Made by a program: the position numbers and the translations under genes. A stretch of DNA of 64,000 bases from an uncultured Planctomycetota bacterium. GTDB lineage: Bacteria > Planctomycetota > Phycisphaerae > UBA1845 > UTPLA1. Each line of letters begins with the position of its first letter. The stretch's first letter is position 1. The notes under the pieces are model-generated. The model worked only from the letters and a program-made list of their open reading frames with translations. It was not told the DNA's origin and ran no database searches. Below are positions 57,852-63,908 of the stretch, piece by piece. The stretch spans positions 80,912 to 144,911 of the forward strand of contig CAADGE010000020.1 of assembly GCA_900696465.1 (NCBI GenBank), written 5' to 3'.

Positions 57852-59324
57852 ATGCACCATGTCGTTGATCCGGCCACAGCGGCACTTCCGATCGAGTCAG
57901 TGCCGACGCTTCGTACCGAGATACGCCGGCTGATCCGGCTCGGCCTGCCGATCATCGGCACGACCTTGTCCGGCATGCTGCTCGGCTTTACCGACTTCGT
58001 CATGGTCTCCCGTCTCGGGACCGAGGCCACTGCGGCGATCAGCCCTTGCACCATGCTTCTCTACAGCGTGTTGTGTCTGGGACTGGGCATGTCCAACAGC
58101 GTCCAGACTTTTTCGGCGCAGGCAGTCGGCCGCAAGCAACCGAAGGAAGCAGCGGCCTACGCCTGGCAATCGCTCTATGTGGCGATGCTGTTTGCGCTGC
58201 TTGCCTACCCGGTGACGACGGCGATGCCGCGCCTGTGGGTACTGGTCGGCCACGAACCCACCGTGCAGGCAATGGAAGTGGCCTACAGCGAGGTCGTTCT
58301 CTGGTGCATGCCGCTGGCGATCCTCTGCGTCGGGCTGGAGGGATTTTTCAACGGCATCCAGCGGCCCAAGGTGGCACTTGTCTCCGTGCTGGCCGCGGTC
58401 GTCTTCAATGTGATCGCCAATTACGTCTTTATCTTTGGCAAGCTCGGTGTACCTGCCATGGGCATCCGCGGCGCGGCCGTGGCCACGCTTATCGCCTGGA
58501 CCGTGCGTCTGTTCATCCTTGCGGTTCTCTTTCGCGGGCGAGATTTTCATCGCGAGTATGACTCGCGCAATCAGTGGCAGCCGAGTCTTCAGCGGCTTCG
58601 GGGCATTCTTCATGTCGGCGGACCGACCGGCGTCCAATGGACCCTCGACGTCGGCTCGTGGTTCATTTTTCTTACGGTTCTCATCGCCGGTTTCGGCACG
58701 GCGACTCTGGCCGCGTCGAACATTGCCCTGCAATTCATGCACATCTCTTTCATGGCCGCACTCGGGGTCGGCAGCGCCGTGACCACGCTCGTCGGCCACG
58801 CCATCGGTGAGCGCAAGCATGACCTGGCAGCGCTCCGGGCCAAGTCCGGCATGGTGCTCACTGCTTCCTACATGTTCCTCATCGGCTTGCTCTTTCTGTT
58901 GACAGGGCGGTGGCTCGTCGGTTTGCTCTCGAACGATCCTGAAGTCATTGATACCGGGGCCCGTGTGCTGCTGTGGGCTGCGCTTTTTCAGGTGTTCGAC
59001 GCCATGGGAATTGCCTACGTTCACGCGCTTCGCGGCGCGGGAGACACCCGCTGGCCCGCCGCGCTGGTCATCGTCTGCAACTGGGGCGTCTTCATCTGCG
59101 GCGGCTATCTCGTTTCGCGCTATCTGCCGCAGCTGAGCTACCACGGTCCCTGGATGATGTGTGCCCTGTATATTATCCTCATCGGCCTGGCCCTGCGGGC
59201 GCGCTTTCTGCACGGCGCCTGGCGGAAGATTGAATTGTTCAAGCAGGATGCAGCCGCACCGACGGTCGTCACGGACGTGCCTACGGCCGTTTGTGATGTG
59301 GAGCAGGTGGGGGTGGGGGCGTGA
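57852..59324 (+). CDS. MATE family efflux transporter
   Basis: A 490-aa cation-antiport multidrug exporter type protein with about 12 helices in two bundles. The first bundle starts LIRLGLPIIGTTLSGMLLGFTDFVMVSRLG with the conserved Asp. The second has LRGILHVGGPTGVQWTLDVGSWFIF and GVGSAVTTLVGHAIGERKHD. ALHVGGP-like and GVGSAVTTLVG segments are family typical. The substrate is unknown. A GTG at 57900 is an alternative start. It follows a leader with an intrinsic terminator, so expression may depend on antitermination. Confidence 0.92.
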   Translation: MHHVVDPATAALPIESVPTLRTEIRRLIRLGLPIIGTTLSGMLLGFTDFVMVSRLGTEATAAISPCTMLLYSVLCLGLGMSNSVQTFSAQAVGRKQPKEAAAYAWQSLYVAMLFALLAYPVTTAMPRLWVLVGHEPTVQAMEVAYSEVVLWCMPLAILCVGLEGFFNGIQRPKVALVSVLAAVVFNVIANYVFIFGKLGVPAMGIRGAAVATLIAWTVRLFILAVLFRGRDFHREYDSRNQWQPSLQRLRGILHVGGPTGVQWTLDVGSWFIFLTVLIAGFGTATLAASNIALQFMHISFMAALGVGSAVTTLVGHAIGERKHDLAALRAKSGMVLTASYMFLIGLLFLLTGRWLVGLLSNDPEVIDTGARVLLWAALFQVFDAMGIAYVHALRGAGDTRWPAALVIVCNWGVFICGGYLVSRYLPQLSYHGPWMMCALYIILIGLALRARFLHGAWRKIELFKQDAAAPTVVTDVPTAVCDVEQVGVGA

Positions 59325-59376
59325 AAGAAATGTGGAACGCGGAATGCGGTATTGAGCGTAAGCCGAGTTAACTGTG

Positions 59377-62300
59377 ATGTTCAAGGAAGTACCCAGTCAG
59401 TTTGATTTCCCGGCAATGGAGAAGGAGATTCTCGCATTCTGGGAGTCGGGCAAGATTTACGAGAAGTCGCTCCGGCAGCGCGAGGGCGCGACGCCGTTCG
59501 TTTTCTTCGAAGGACCGCCGACGGCCAACGGCCTGCCGCATCCCGGTCACTGTCTGACCCGAGCGATCAAAGACCTGTTCCCGCGTTACAAGACGATGAC
59601 CGGCCACTACTGCCTGCGCAAGGGCGGCTGGGACACGCACGGCCTGCCGGTCGAGGTGGAGGTGTGCAAGGAGCTGGGCATCCACACCAAGGAGGAGATT
59701 GAGAAGTACGGCGTCGAACGGTTCAACAAGAAGTGCCTGGAGAGCGTCTTTCGATATACGAAGGAATGGGAGGAATTGACGCGACGGCTGGGGTTCTGGG
59801 TGAACCTCGATGAGGCGTACGTCACGTATCACCAGTCGTATGTCGAGAGTGTCTGGTGGTCGCTGAAGCAACTTTTTGACGCCGGTGTGCTCTATCAGGG
59901 CCACAAGATCGTCTGGTGGTGGGCCCAGGGCGGCACGGCACTGTCGAGCGGCGAGGTGGGGCAGGGCTATCGCGAGGTGGATGACCCCTCGGTGTATGTC
60001 CGGTTTCCGGTGGTGATGGATGATCGGGCGAAAGACCGACTTGAGTCGTGGGGCCTGGGTCCTGTGAGAAGCGCGGTCGGGCCCGATTCTCAAGCCCTGA
60101 GTCACAAGCCCCAAGTCTCCCTCCTGGTCTGGACGACCACGCCGTGGACACTGCCGTCAAACATGTTCGCGGCGGTTCATAAGGATTTTGATTATTCCAT
60201 TGTGCATGACGAAGAGAGCGGCGAGCGTCTGATCTTCGCCGCGGCCCTGGTTGAGCAGATTGCGAAGAAGGTGAAGAAGACGGACAAGTGGAAGGTCGAG
60301 AAGACGGTTAAAGGTGCTGATCTTGTCGGACTTTCCTATCGGCCGCCGTTTGATTCCTATCGCAAGCGGACTGCGAAAGATTTTGTCCCTCATGCTGAGC
60401 CGGGCGTTCCACTCGGCGATTACAAGCCGGAGCTTGCAGCCGGAGGCAGCGAATTCGCCTGTTGGCGCGTGTTGGAAGCCGAGTTTGTGACACTCGATTC
60501 CGGCACCGGTCTCGTTCACGAAGCCCCTGCATTCGGCGAGGTGGATTTTGATTTGATGCAGGAGGAGCGCAGACGCTTCAGGAAGCCGGAATCAATTCCG
60601 ATGCTCTGTGCCGTCGCCCCGAACGGGACGTTCACCGAGGACGTGCCTGCCTACAAAGGCCGCTGGGTCAAGGAATGCGACAAGGACATCATCCGTGATC
60701 TGAAGGAGCGTGGATTGCTGCTGCATCAGGAGCAGTATCGCCACGACTACCCCTTCTGCTGGCGGGCCGAGCAGGACCCGTTGATTCAGTATCCGCGAAA
60801 GAGCTGGTTCATCCGCACGACGCAGTTCAAGGAGGCGATGCTGGAGAACAACCGGCACATCAACTGGCTACCGGAGCACATCAAGACCGGCCGGTTCGGC
60901 AAGTTCCTTGAATCGAACGTGGACTGGTCGCTCTCGCGTGAGCGCTACTGGGGCACGCCGCTGCCGATCTGGCGATGCGAGGCGTGCGGGCATACCGAGG
61001 CGATCGATTCTTACGACGCACTGACGCAAAAGCACGGTGTGACAGGGTTGGACGTCTGGGAGAACGCGAAGAAAGCAGATCCGCAGATCAGTGAGCATCT
61101 GAAGGTGCACAAGCCGTACATTGACGCGGTGCAGTATGCGTGTCCGAAGTGCGATGCCAGAGGGGCCGGAGCCGCACGGCCTGAAGGCCGTGGCTCTTCG
61201 GGAGTGAGCCGAATGCATCGCGTGCCGGAAGTGATCGACTGCTGGTACGACAGCGGGGCGATGCCGTTTGCACAATGGGGCTGGCCGCACAAGAACGCGG
61301 AAATGTTTGATTCGCAGTTCCCGGCGGATTTCATCAGCGAGGCGCTGGACCAGACGCGAGGATGGTTTTATTCGCTGGTAGCGATCAGCACGATGCTGTT
61401 CGGGAAGGGCGGTGTCGCGGCGAAACGGGCCGATGGCGATGGAACGGCCGCACGGCCTGAAGGCCGTGGCTCGTCGGCAGGCGGTGGCTCTTCTTGCAAT
61501 GAGTATCCACTTCCATTTCGGAACTGCATCGTCCTCGGCCTGCTGATGGGCGAGGACGGGCTGAAGATGTCCAAGCAGAAGAAGAACTACAAGGAGCCCT
61601 CGTACATCTTCGAGCACGAGGGCGCCGACGCCATGCGCTGGCTTTTCTTCTCCGGGCAGACCCCGTGGACGAGCATCCGCTTTCAGGAGGCAGCCATCGC
61701 CGATGGCCAGCGGGAGTTTCTCATCCGGCTCTACAACTGCTACAGCTTCTTCGTGATCTATGCCAACATCGACGGCTGGACGCCGGATGAACACGGAGCA
61801 CGGAGTGCGGAAGTTGGAATGGCGGATAGCAGCGAGTTGAGCGAACTTGACCGTTGGATTCTCAGCGAGCTAGCGGCGTGTGCGCTGAAAGTATACGACT
61901 GCATGGAGGCGTATGACAATTTCAACGCCGCCCGGGCACTGATCGATTTCGTCGATGCCCTTTCCAATTGGTACGTTCGCCGCAGTCGGGATCGCTTCTG
62001 GAAGAGCGGAATGGACAGCGATAAGCAGGCCGCCTACGCCACACTGCACCATTGCCTGCTGACGACGGCAAAACTGATAGCGCCCTTTACGCCCTTTCTT
62101 GCGGAGTCGATGTATCAGAACCTGGTCCGGACACACGGTACCGGCGCACCTCAGAGCGTACACCTTTGCGATTACCCGGTGACTGCGGCGAACCGCTTAC
62201 AGGTCGGCTCGCAAGTTGACGCCGCGCTCAATGAGGAAATAGAGCTGGTTCGACAGATCGTCTCATGCGGCCGTGCGGCCCGCTCGGCTACCAAGCTGCG

Positions 62301-62973
62301 TGTCCGTCAGCCGCTGCCGCGCATGGAATTGTTCCATCGTCGGGCAGATCTGATTCGCCGTCACGAAGAACTCATCAAGGACGAACTCAACGTCAAGAAG
62401 CTCGACTTCGTCGCTTCTACGGAGATCGACCAGTACGTCCACTACGAGATCAAGCCGGATTTCAAGAAGATCGGCCCAAAGTTCGGCTCGCTGGCGCCGA
62501 AGATCAAGGCCGCCCTGGCGAAGCATCCGAACGTCGATGTCATCGTCAAACAACTTGAGCAGACTGGCAGCTATACACTGATCGTCGACGGCCAGGAGGC
62601 GGAGCTGTCGGGGGAAGAATTACTCGTGGAGCTTCATGCCCGCGAGGGCTGGGCCGCGGAGCGCATTCCTGGCTACGGCATCCTCGTGCTCGATACGCAC
62701 CTGACGGACGAGTTGCGCGAAGAGGGTGTCGTGCGGGACTTCGTTAATCAGATTCAGCAGACGCGAAAATCGCTGAACCTGAAGTACGAGCAGCGCATCA
62801 ACCTGGCTGTGGTGGGGGGGGCGGATGTACAGAAAATCGTCAACCGCTTCGCGAGTTACATTCAGGGTGAGACACTGGCCCAGAATCTGCTCGCCACGCC
62901 GATTTCCGGCGCCGTGCCCACGAAGGCCGAATCCGAAGGTCACACGGCCGAGATTTACGTGCAACCATTGTAG
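59377..62973 (+). CDS. ileS: Isoleucyl-tRNA synthetase with in-frame repeat insertions
   Basis: Charges tRNA-Ile. Class I signatures: HPGH (HIGH variant) at residues 55-58 in PTANGLPHPGHCLT, and DGLKMSKQKKN near residue 730. VWTTTPWTLPSN, VEVCKELGIHTKEEI and DCWYDSGAMPFAQWGWP are typical editing/catalytic landmarks. At 1198 aa it is about 100-150 longer than usual. The excess is several low-complexity insertions: near residues 216-246, 597-615, 685-715 and 806-820. Two contain the same 10-residue peptide AARPEGRGSS encoded by a palindrome. The frame is open throughout. ATG at 59377, preceded directly by GTG. Confidence 0.95.
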   Translation: MFKEVPSQFDFPAMEKEILAFWESGKIYEKSLRQREGATPFVFFEGPPTANGLPHPGHCLTRAIKDLFPRYKTMTGHYCLRKGGWDTHGLPVEVEVCKELGIHTKEEIEKYGVERFNKKCLESVFRYTKEWEELTRRLGFWVNLDEAYVTYHQSYVESVWWSLKQLFDAGVLYQGHKIVWWWAQGGTALSSGEVGQGYREVDDPSVYVRFPVVMDDRAKDRLESWGLGPVRSAVGPDSQALSHKPQVSLLVWTTTPWTLPSNMFAAVHKDFDYSIVHDEESGERLIFAAALVEQIAKKVKKTDKWKVEKTVKGADLVGLSYRPPFDSYRKRTAKDFVPHAEPGVPLGDYKPELAAGGSEFACWRVLEAEFVTLDSGTGLVHEAPAFGEVDFDLMQEERRRFRKPESIPMLCAVAPNGTFTEDVPAYKGRWVKECDKDIIRDLKERGLLLHQEQYRHDYPFCWRAEQDPLIQYPRKSWFIRTTQFKEAMLENNRHINWLPEHIKTGRFGKFLESNVDWSLSRERYWGTPLPIWRCEACGHTEAIDSYDALTQKHGVTGLDVWENAKKADPQISEHLKVHKPYIDAVQYACPKCDARGAGAARPEGRGSSGVSRMHRVPEVIDCWYDSGAMPFAQWGWPHKNAEMFDSQFPADFISEALDQTRGWFYSLVAISTMLFGKGGVAAKRADGDGTAARPEGRGSSAGGGSSCNEYPLPFRNCIVLGLLMGEDGLKMSKQKKNYKEPSYIFEHEGADAMRWLFFSGQTPWTSIRFQEAAIADGQREFLIRLYNCYSFFVIYANIDGWTPDEHGARSAEVGMADSSELSELDRWILSELAACALKVYDCMEAYDNFNAARALIDFVDALSNWYVRRSRDRFWKSGMDSDKQAAYATLHHCLLTTAKLIAPFTPFLAESMYQNLVRTHGTGAPQSVHLCDYPVTAANRLQVGSQVDAALNEEIELVRQIVSCGRAARSATKLRVRQPLPRMELFHRRADLIRRHEELIKDELNVKKLDFVASTEIDQYVHYEIKPDFKKIGPKFGSLAPKIKAALAKHPNVDVIVKQLEQTGSYTLIVDGQEAELSGEELLVELHAREGWAAERIPGYGILVLDTHLTDELREEGVVRDFVNQIQQTRKSLNLKYEQRINLAVVGGADVQKIVNRFASYIQGETLAQNLLATPISGAVPTKAESEGHTAEIYVQPL
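61171..61200 (+). repeat. Palindromic repeat copy A inside ileS
   Basis: 30 bases encoding AARPEGRGSS within ileS. The core is CACGGCCT-GA-AGGCCGTG (61175-61192), a perfect 8-bp inverted repeat, and with a bulge the stem extends into GAGC/GCTC. It is identical to copy B at 29 of 30 positions and read in the same frame. Confidence 0.9.
61447..61476 (+). repeat. Palindromic repeat copy B inside ileS
   Basis: Second copy of the 30-base element, 276 bases after copy A and in the same reading frame. It is followed by GGCAGGCGGTGGCTCTTCT, which repeats part of the element's tail (GTGGCTCTTC) once more. Confidence 0.9.
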
Positions 62974-63089: not shown

Positions 63090-63908
63090 ATGCCTCGATA
63101 CAACCACAAGACCGACAAGCACATTCTTTATCAGGAAGCCGTCCAATCGGCCGATGCCGAAGTGGAGTTCATCGATCGCCTCTATCGGAAGGCCTACGGC
63201 CGACCGGCCACTCTATTCCGCGAGGACTTCTGCGGCACGCAGCTCATCTCCTGCGAATGGGCGAAGCTTCGACCGCGCAACATTGCCTATGGCGTCGATC
63301 TGTGCAGGAAGACCCTCGCCTGGGGACTCCGGCACAACATCAGCCGTTTGCCCGAGCGTGTCGCCCGGCGTGTTCACCAGGTTAATAAGAACGTCCTCGA
63401 AGTTACTCGCCCGAAGATGGAGATCATCGGTGCGTTTAACTTCAGCTACTTCATCTTCAAGCACCGTTGCGACCTGCTCGCCTATTTCCAGGCGGTGCGA
63501 CGCTCGCTGCTGCCGAAGGGGCTCTTTGTCTGTGATGCCTACGGCGGCTGGGAATCGCAGCAGGTGATGAAAGAAAAGACCAAGCTCAAGGGTTTTACGT
63601 ACATCTGGGACCAGGAGGTTTATAACCCGATCAATGACCACACCATCTGCCACATTCATTTCAAGTTTCCCAACGGCAAGATGATGAAGCGGGCCTTTAC
63701 TTACGACTGGCGACTCTGGTCGCTCGGGGATATTCAGGACACCATGCTCGACGCCGGCTTTCGCGAGACGGAGGTCTATTGGGAAGATGAAGACGAAGAC
63801 GGCGAGGGCACGGGGGTCTATCGAAAGCGAGCCCGCGCCGATAACAGCCCCGGATGGAACGCCTACATTGTCGGGTATCCGTCCGGCCAAACACACGGAG
63901 CAGAGTGA
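63090..63908 (+). CDS. Class I SAM-dependent methyltransferase
   Basis: A 272-aa cytosolic protein with a Rossmann-type methyltransferase core. The SAM-binding start is LFREDFCGTQLISCEWAK (an FCGTG-like loop), then AYGVDLCRKTLAWG (acidic end of strand 2), FNFSYFIFKHR and LLPKGLFVCDAYGG. Related proteins are annotated only as methyltransferases; the substrate is unknown. A strong site GGAGGAGAA is present but is about 15 bases upstream, rather far. The C-terminal region has an acidic patch (WEDEDEDGEG). It lies 116 bases past ileS, after its terminator. Confidence 0.85.
   Translation: MPRYNHKTDKHILYQEAVQSADAEVEFIDRLYRKAYGRPATLFREDFCGTQLISCEWAKLRPRNIAYGVDLCRKTLAWGLRHNISRLPERVARRVHQVNKNVLEVTRPKMEIIGAFNFSYFIFKHRCDLLAYFQAVRRSLLPKGLFVCDAYGGWESQQVMKEKTKLKGFTYIWDQEVYNPINDHTICHIHFKFPNGKMMKRAFTYDWRLWSLGDIQDTMLDAGFRETEVYWEDEDEDGEGTGVYRKRARADNSPGWNAYIVGYPSGQTHGAE

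Follow-up and report, generated by a model that had tools for sequence, protein, structure and literature searches.

In-frame palindromes in a planctomycete isoleucyl-tRNA synthetase match the ends of a RAYT-type transposase unit within purH

Two in-frame palindromes in ileS

The window analysed here, a 64,000-nucleotide stretch of a contig from an uncultured Planctomycetota bacterium, carries an ileS gene (NCBIfam TIGR00392, 827 bits against a cut-off of 621.4) that hosts two REP-like palindromes (Table 1). A MATE family transporter (window 57852-59324) and a 272-aa ORF without an NCBIfam match (63090-63908) adjoin ileS.

Table 1. Features of the ileS locus, in window coordinates.
Feature	Position	Strand	Basis or remark
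ileS, isoleucyl-tRNA synthetase, 1199 aa, host of both repeats	59374..62973	+	ORF; NCBIfam TIGR00392; Pfam PF00133, PF08264, PF19302
REP-like copy A: hairpin 61168-61198, core 61175-61192, AARPEGRGSS coded by 61171-61200	61168..61200	+	
REP-like copy B: core 61451-61468, AARPEGRGSS coded by 61447-61476	61444..61476	+	
GGCGGTGGCTCTTC, apparent worn right half of the palindrome, adjoining copy B	61480..61493	+	Read from the sequence; compare the 18-bp right-half array in purH
Variable IleS loop before SLLVWTTTPW	60034..60114	+	G003 and G007 have an in-frame transposase in the same loop

The original prediction held that two 30-base elements, identical at 29 of 30 bases and built on a perfect 8-bp inverted core, encode AARPEGRGSS twice in a single ileS frame, and each of these points proved correct. 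The arms CACGGCCT and AGGCCGTG form a perfect inverted repeat flanking GA, both copies begin at codon boundaries (codons 600 and 692), and the direct repeat between them extends to 34 nt at 94% identity. The sequence CACGGCCTGAAGGCCGTG occurs exactly in both cores and, with up to 3 mismatches allowed, at those two sites alone in the window (mean 0.09, maximum 2 in shuffles); both sites also match on the minus strand, with 2 mismatches each. As a hairpin the element reads GAGC-CG-CACGGCC-TGAA-GGCCGTG-GCTC, with a two-base bulge. Folded as single-stranded DNA, copy A reaches -11.2 (z -3.3) and -11.1 (z -4.5) kcal/mol on the two strands, and copy B -10.2 kcal/mol (z -2.5).

Aligned to the solved IleS 8c8v, copy A coincides with a gap, and copy B lies between two stretches that match; an AlphaFold model of IleS (mean pLDDT 60.6, catalytic core poor) was left unused for placing the two sites. 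The window's own IleS loop at 60034..60114 holds no palindrome copy. A further IleS loop, DEHGARSAEVGMADSS (window 61780-61830), is variable, with repeat-like peptides such as NEPRASARAA and SRDHTQSRDHTQ in relatives, and may be another entry site.

A palindrome family with a single coding register

Searches of the whole genome (4.14 Mb, 48 contigs) found 12 palindrome copies with at most one mismatch, on six contigs and in both orientations, and reversed-pattern controls gave 0 matches in every genome search, this one included. A 23-base pattern with up to 3 mismatches matched 13 places, the thirteenth being doubtful. These controls and the shuffles of the window rule out a chance origin.

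Eight of the 12 copies lie inside ORFs of recognised genes, namely ileS (2), valS (3), purH (2), and a DHO_dh plus 4Fe-4S protein that we take to be preA-like (1). All eight share one codon register, CGG CCT GAA/TCA GGC CGT, read as R P E/S G R, with a base change inside it in one valS copy. Five of the palindrome's six readings are open and the sixth hits TGA. Because the register in use is stop-free and encodes a short hydrophilic linker, RP(E/S)GR, an insert would be translated as part of its host enzyme. Two of the valS copies lie 48 bp apart. Of the remaining four copies, all beyond recognised genes, two are paired in inverted orientation at a distance of 132 bp, one of the two directly upstream of dxr.

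The family resembles REPs in being a short imperfect hairpin (z -2.5 to -4.5) dispersed through the genome. It departs from them in its tags, with CGTC after the right foot in 5 of 12 copies and GTAG directly before the left foot in 2 of 12, and in its low copy number and its mainly intragenic location, where REPs are mainly extragenic and numerous.

A transposase unit in frame within purH

Profile searches of the genome with PF01797 gave three matches, one of which (C29:66468-66686, E 1.2e-7) is flanked by inverted palindromes at C29:66193(-) and 66826(+). Beyond what was originally predicted, this transposase gene is itself an in-frame insert, in purH: the unit, ends included, shares one 843-aa stop-free frame with both PurH domains. 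The exact inverted repeat around the guest measures 31 nt (shuffle maximum 11), and its right end continues as 9.9 copies of an 18-bp unit that is built from the right half of the palindrome and is read as EGRGSS repeats.

The guest scores 30.6 bits against PF01797 (cut-off 23) and retains the HUH and catalytic tyrosine motifs of Y1 transposases (H404, H406 and Y464 in alignment A1). It is flanked, as a RAYT would be, by two inverted copies of the genome's own palindrome, although its tyrosine motif is Y---Q (Q468 after Y464) and lacks the asparagine of the E. coli TnpAREP type. Foldseek returned PurH as the first match; the guest itself matched ISDra2 TnpA (E 2.6e-4) and, next, the REP-bound RAYT 4er8 (E 2.2e-3), and the guest sequence has weak similarity to solved transposases (E 0.001). 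At E 0.001, AICARFT_IMPCHas, MGS and Y1_Tnp were the only domains found in the fusion, with no splicing (Hint) domain. The AlphaFold model of the fusion is weak overall (pLDDT 65.9, pTM 0.39): the end-coded residues 277-298 and 486-557, and likewise 321-360, fall below pLDDT 50, and residues 371-430 and 451-480 lie near 80-90. Lacking a stop of its own, the guest would be made as an internal domain of PurH.

Two other Y1 transposases are present in the genome (C29:220 and C36:4000); we take the purH guest as the probable mover of the repeat because the palindromes flank it. A stand-alone Y1 transposase frame adjoins alaS (contig C36, L018:667-4398), and the AlaS loop that holds a transposase in the congener G016 is short in the window's genome (TGLLES...VMKDVAYR).

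Empty and differently filled sites in relatives

We compared the window's genome (G000) with the 16 other genomes of its 17-member GTDB family set. The palindrome, searched as a 22-base pattern, occurs in none of the 16, two congeners included; a looser pattern found a related palindrome twice in G007. The IleS stretch at site A measures 36 aa in the window's genome, 20 in G016 and G001 and 38 in G015, and that at site B 37 aa in the window's genome, 14 in G001, 16 in G015 and 21 in G016. The loops are shorter in these relatives, except at site A of G015, which has an insert of its own.

Aligned at site A, G016 and G001 have no insert, and G015 carries the peptide SARTEVRGSS, coded by CCCGGACTGAAGTCCGGGGCTC, a palindrome whose TGAA loop is identical and whose stem differs on both sides. 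Allowing up to 2 mismatches, CCCGGACTGAAGTCCGGGGCTC occurs at 19 places in G015 and was not found in the window's genome. Two sister species so hold different palindromes of one design in one IleS loop, through independent entry or replacement. G015 also encodes a duplicated 532-aa protein of unknown function with two in-frame copies of its palindrome (L245, L255, L247, L256). The purH gene was found in 15 of the 17 family genomes and its guest in 4 of those 15; the loop is short in G015 (CAELARQSHEPGICVFI) and holds another repeat-like peptide in G016 (LWHRLSAGAT...HRLMAGAT).

In-frame transposase guests in the family and in databases

Across the 17 family genomes PF01797 gave 107 matches, 13 of them in open frames of at least 395 aa. 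Two of these long frames (G014, G001) were dropped, as no known gene was recognised around the transposase. The other 11 guests lie within recognised enzymes in 9 of the 17 genomes: purH in four (G000, G005, G011, G012), alaS in three (G005, G009, G016), ileS in three (G003, G007, G013) and gcvP in one (G013). An exact inverted repeat of 13-31 nt surrounds the transposase in all 11, against maxima of 10-13 in 100 shuffles each; the weakest are those of gcvP (13 versus 11) and of G005 purH (14 versus 10). None of the 11 has a stop between guest and host. Within the span tested for starts, two have an ATG (one of them inside the core), one has a GTG with an SD-like stretch, and four have no ATG, GTG or TTG. 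In G009 there is a Y1 transposase match some 350 bp away from ileS (C1030:24418-28462), adjoining a preferred host gene.

Three database searches queried with the guest portion and restricted by length to long proteins yielded 47, 102 and 54 proteins, and likeness to four reference enzymes sorted these 203 fusions into ValS (75), AlaS (40), PurH (27), IleS (20) and other hosts (41). Four of the 11 family fusions are database entries (P0013, P0053, P0091, P0150); with the other seven added, the 210 different fusion proteins comprise ValS 75, AlaS 41, PurH 30, IleS 22 and other 42. Entry P0013, from Phycisphaerae bacterium RAS2, matches the G012 PurH with full identity. Seeded by three guests and filtered by length, the searches behind these counts favour long hosts and those guest lineages; the less biased family sample agrees in direction. 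By Pfam, the other hosts include MmeI-type enzymes and PF06634 methylases, with single GlnE-type, GcvP-type and PF00012/PF06723 cases. Most fusions carry no source name, and the named ones are mostly from Planctomycetota or Phycisphaerae, with 'cyanobacterium TDX16' and a gammaproteobacterial bin as single exceptions. Automatic JGI names couple 'PurH/RayT' and 'alanyl-tRNA synthetase/RayT'.

A loose pattern found the HUH and tyrosine motifs retained in 202 of the 210 fusions, and a methionine lies between 40 residues before and 12 after the start of the guest match in 66. Judged from sequence, the simplest reading is that the guest would be expressed as an internal domain of its host.

A class-wide search of 81 genomes listed best matches, among which embedded guests score low, and no rate was derived from it. 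Among the best 80 of 180 loci encoding such transposases in named genomes, 7 lie in frames longer than 420 aa (three ValS, one MmeI-type, two unidentified, and one class II tRNA-synthetase domain behind an N-terminal transposase). The other 73 lie in shorter frames, so these transposases do not as a rule reside in frame within a host gene. In G083, a 1478-aa frame (L262:2028-6464, minus strand), DNA-methylase-like by eye, contains a Y1 transposase and two arrays of short repeat peptides.

Recurrent loops, turnover and maintenance

With four doubles removed, and with site coordinates taken from BLAST ends, which scatter, all 30 PurH guests fall in one loop. For AlaS, 34 entries fall in one loop and 6 in another, with 1 too short, and for ValS 71 in one loop and 2 in another, with 2 unplaced. 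The IleS guests divide equally, 11 lying near residue 220 and 11 in copy B's loop. The sets behind the loop, tree and distance analyses (214 and 213 rows) include the four doubles, as well as three AlaS entries near identical to each other.

Guests group by host gene in a FastTree phylogeny of the guests, where the host changes 6 times (171 rows, four hosts, doubles included) against at least 78 times in 20 label shuffles. Turnover within a loop is seen in two ValS proteins, P0194 and P0110, which are 98% identical before the loop and 88% after it; their guests sit in the same loop with no significant similarity and with different end peptides. We regard this pair as strong sequence-level evidence for independent entry or replacement at one loop.

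Guest and host distances, taken for PurH, AlaS, ValS, the IleS loop near residue 220 and the IleS copy B loop in that order, gave rank correlations of 0.20, 0.34, 0.30, 0.03 and 0.43, which were reached by 17, 0, 0, 172 and 1 of 500 permutations. Between-halves controls gave 0.63, 0.48, 0.86, 0.64 and 0.14 for guests and 0.38, 0.24, 0.65, 0.87 and 0.67 for hosts. Taken with the controls, the correlations argue against strictly shared inheritance of guest and host in two cases only, ValS and the first IleS loop.

Between G011 and G012 the purH guest has a dN/dS of 0.13 (dS 0.67), beside 0.11 (dS 0.65) for the C part of PurH and 0.34 (dS 0.95) for its N part. The guest is thus maintained and, in the genus of these two genomes, was apparently inherited vertically.

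Discussion

We propose, with a probability of roughly 0.8, that the ileS repeats are members of a 12-copy palindrome family that forms both ends of an in-frame RAYT-type unit in purH, and that they were likely placed by its transposase. The transposase would recognise the hairpin as single-stranded DNA and would move the palindrome alone or together with its own gene; cells would survive where the insert preserves the frame and lands in a tolerant loop. Relatives have the same arrangement at a small number of ValS, AlaS, PurH and IleS loops, built from different palindromes and transposases. Transposition, the function of the fused enzymes and 'homing' are steps that we infer. The original idea of a mobile repeat that tolerates in-frame insertion is supported by the spread of its copies over six contigs, its absence from the 16 relatives and its position on either side of a transposase gene. 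That idea also allowed for selection of the inserts; here tolerance suffices, as loss of cells with frame-breaking insertions would leave the same pattern.

The ileS copies could instead be footprints: whole units would once have occupied the loops and then disappeared through recombination between their ends, so that one palindrome stayed behind. The 11 distinct IleS proteins with a transposase in the loop of copy B, and the worn second half-repeat beside that copy, are consistent with such a history. We nonetheless consider it unlikely, as none of the fusions has a transposase placed at site A, and the preA-like and intergenic copies and the close valS pair suggest that the palindrome also moves alone or in pairs.

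More doubtful still is that the guests are domesticated, a transposase domain or linker being kept for a useful function in the host enzyme. Purifying selection on the G011/G012 purH guest, the near-universal HUH and tyrosine motifs (by the loose pattern) and the host-gene specificity of the guests would fit this; against it stand the patchy presence of the purH guest in the family, the unrelated guests in nearly identical ValS proteins, and hosts that share no function (PurH, tRNA synthetases, MmeI-type enzymes). Ordinary local repeat expansion or gene conversion without transposition could produce the right-half array in purH and the likeness of the two ileS copies over 34 nt, but it is highly improbable given that copies occur in either orientation and in unrelated genes across six contigs, that an inverted pair encloses the transposase and that G015 has a different palindrome. 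We reject an ancestral IleS loop peptide with a coincidental repeat: the same loops do vary in length in all relatives, some with other repeat-like peptides, but the repeat family is confined to 1 of the 17 genomes, the window's own, G001 and G016 lack the insert at site A, and the situation expected of an ancestral loop, the same peptide in all orthologues and no repeat family, does not obtain.

More broadly, and tentatively, planctomycete RAYTs may be splicing-free, homing-like guests. Lineages specialised on one host gene would insert in frame at one and the same loop of that essential enzyme and be expressed along with it as an internal domain. They would be hard to lose, because careless deletion would break the host enzyme. 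Palindromic ends left elsewhere in frame, as in ileS, would write new linkers into essential enzymes. We hold this wider reading to be possible rather than probable.

The usual assumption is that such mobile DNA destroys the genes that it enters. A model of REPIN persistence, in the excerpts available of PMC8049555, has the gene that receives a REPIN copy destroyed. The contrast with that part of the model (PMC8049555) is that here both the palindrome and a whole transposase gene sit in frame within housekeeping enzymes, time and again at the same loops. Should the fused enzymes be functional, they would amount to a naturally occurring set of tRNA synthetases and PurH proteins with inserted domains, as well as a route from mobile DNA to new protein linkers. 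A testable reason for single-copy persistence also emerges, namely that such transposases may be locked into genes that the cell cannot lose. Furthermore, the arrangement explains odd database names, such as 'transposase' given to whole PurH proteins.

Comparison with known systems

REPtrons, as described in excerpts of PMC2817692 and PMC3733652, are RAYT/TnpAREP genes between inverted REP palindromes. Like them, the purH unit consists of a Y1 HUH transposase gene bracketed by inverted copies of a genome-dispersed hairpin, and inverted pairs occur. Unlike REPtrons, the unit and its ends form one open frame with a housekeeping enzyme and the gene has no stop of its own; the copies are few for a REP family and mostly in genes, the tyrosine motif is Y---Q, and there is no constant GTAG tag. 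Described REPs typically carry GTAG or CGTC tags. According to the available part of PMC6006769, Y---Q is the IS200-type TnpA motif. E. coli TnpAREP has asparagine at that position.

Di Nocera 2013 (PMC3733652), in the excerpts available, describes REPs in frame within genes, tRNA synthetases included, as well as palindrome-flanked RAYT genes, and mentions Rickettsia palindromic elements (RPE). The present repeats resemble the REPs of those excerpts (PMC3733652) in being translated intragenic palindromes that in some cases occur twice within a gene or recur in one gene across two species. The guests described there are palindromes of about 20-82 aa (PMC3733652, same excerpts), whereas here transposase genes lie inside host proteins. 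In-frame REPs are thus already published; in-frame whole units, recurrent in planctomycetes, were not found described. Our literature search, mostly outside subscription papers and preprints, found no description of whole RAYT units in frame within essential enzymes.

RPE are small palindromes inserted in frame in coding genes. The originally predicted parallel with them holds for behaviour only, and a RAYT unit is the closer parallel because, unlike in RPE, a transposase is present with the matching palindrome at both of its ends. Inteins and other homing guests are in-frame elements with a DNA-cutting enzyme, found at recurrent sites of essential genes and patchy among relatives. Unlike inteins, the PurH guest has no splicing domain and would remain in the mature enzyme, and the sites are variable loops; like inteins, these guests are in frame, recur at the same sites of essential genes and are patchily distributed among relatives.
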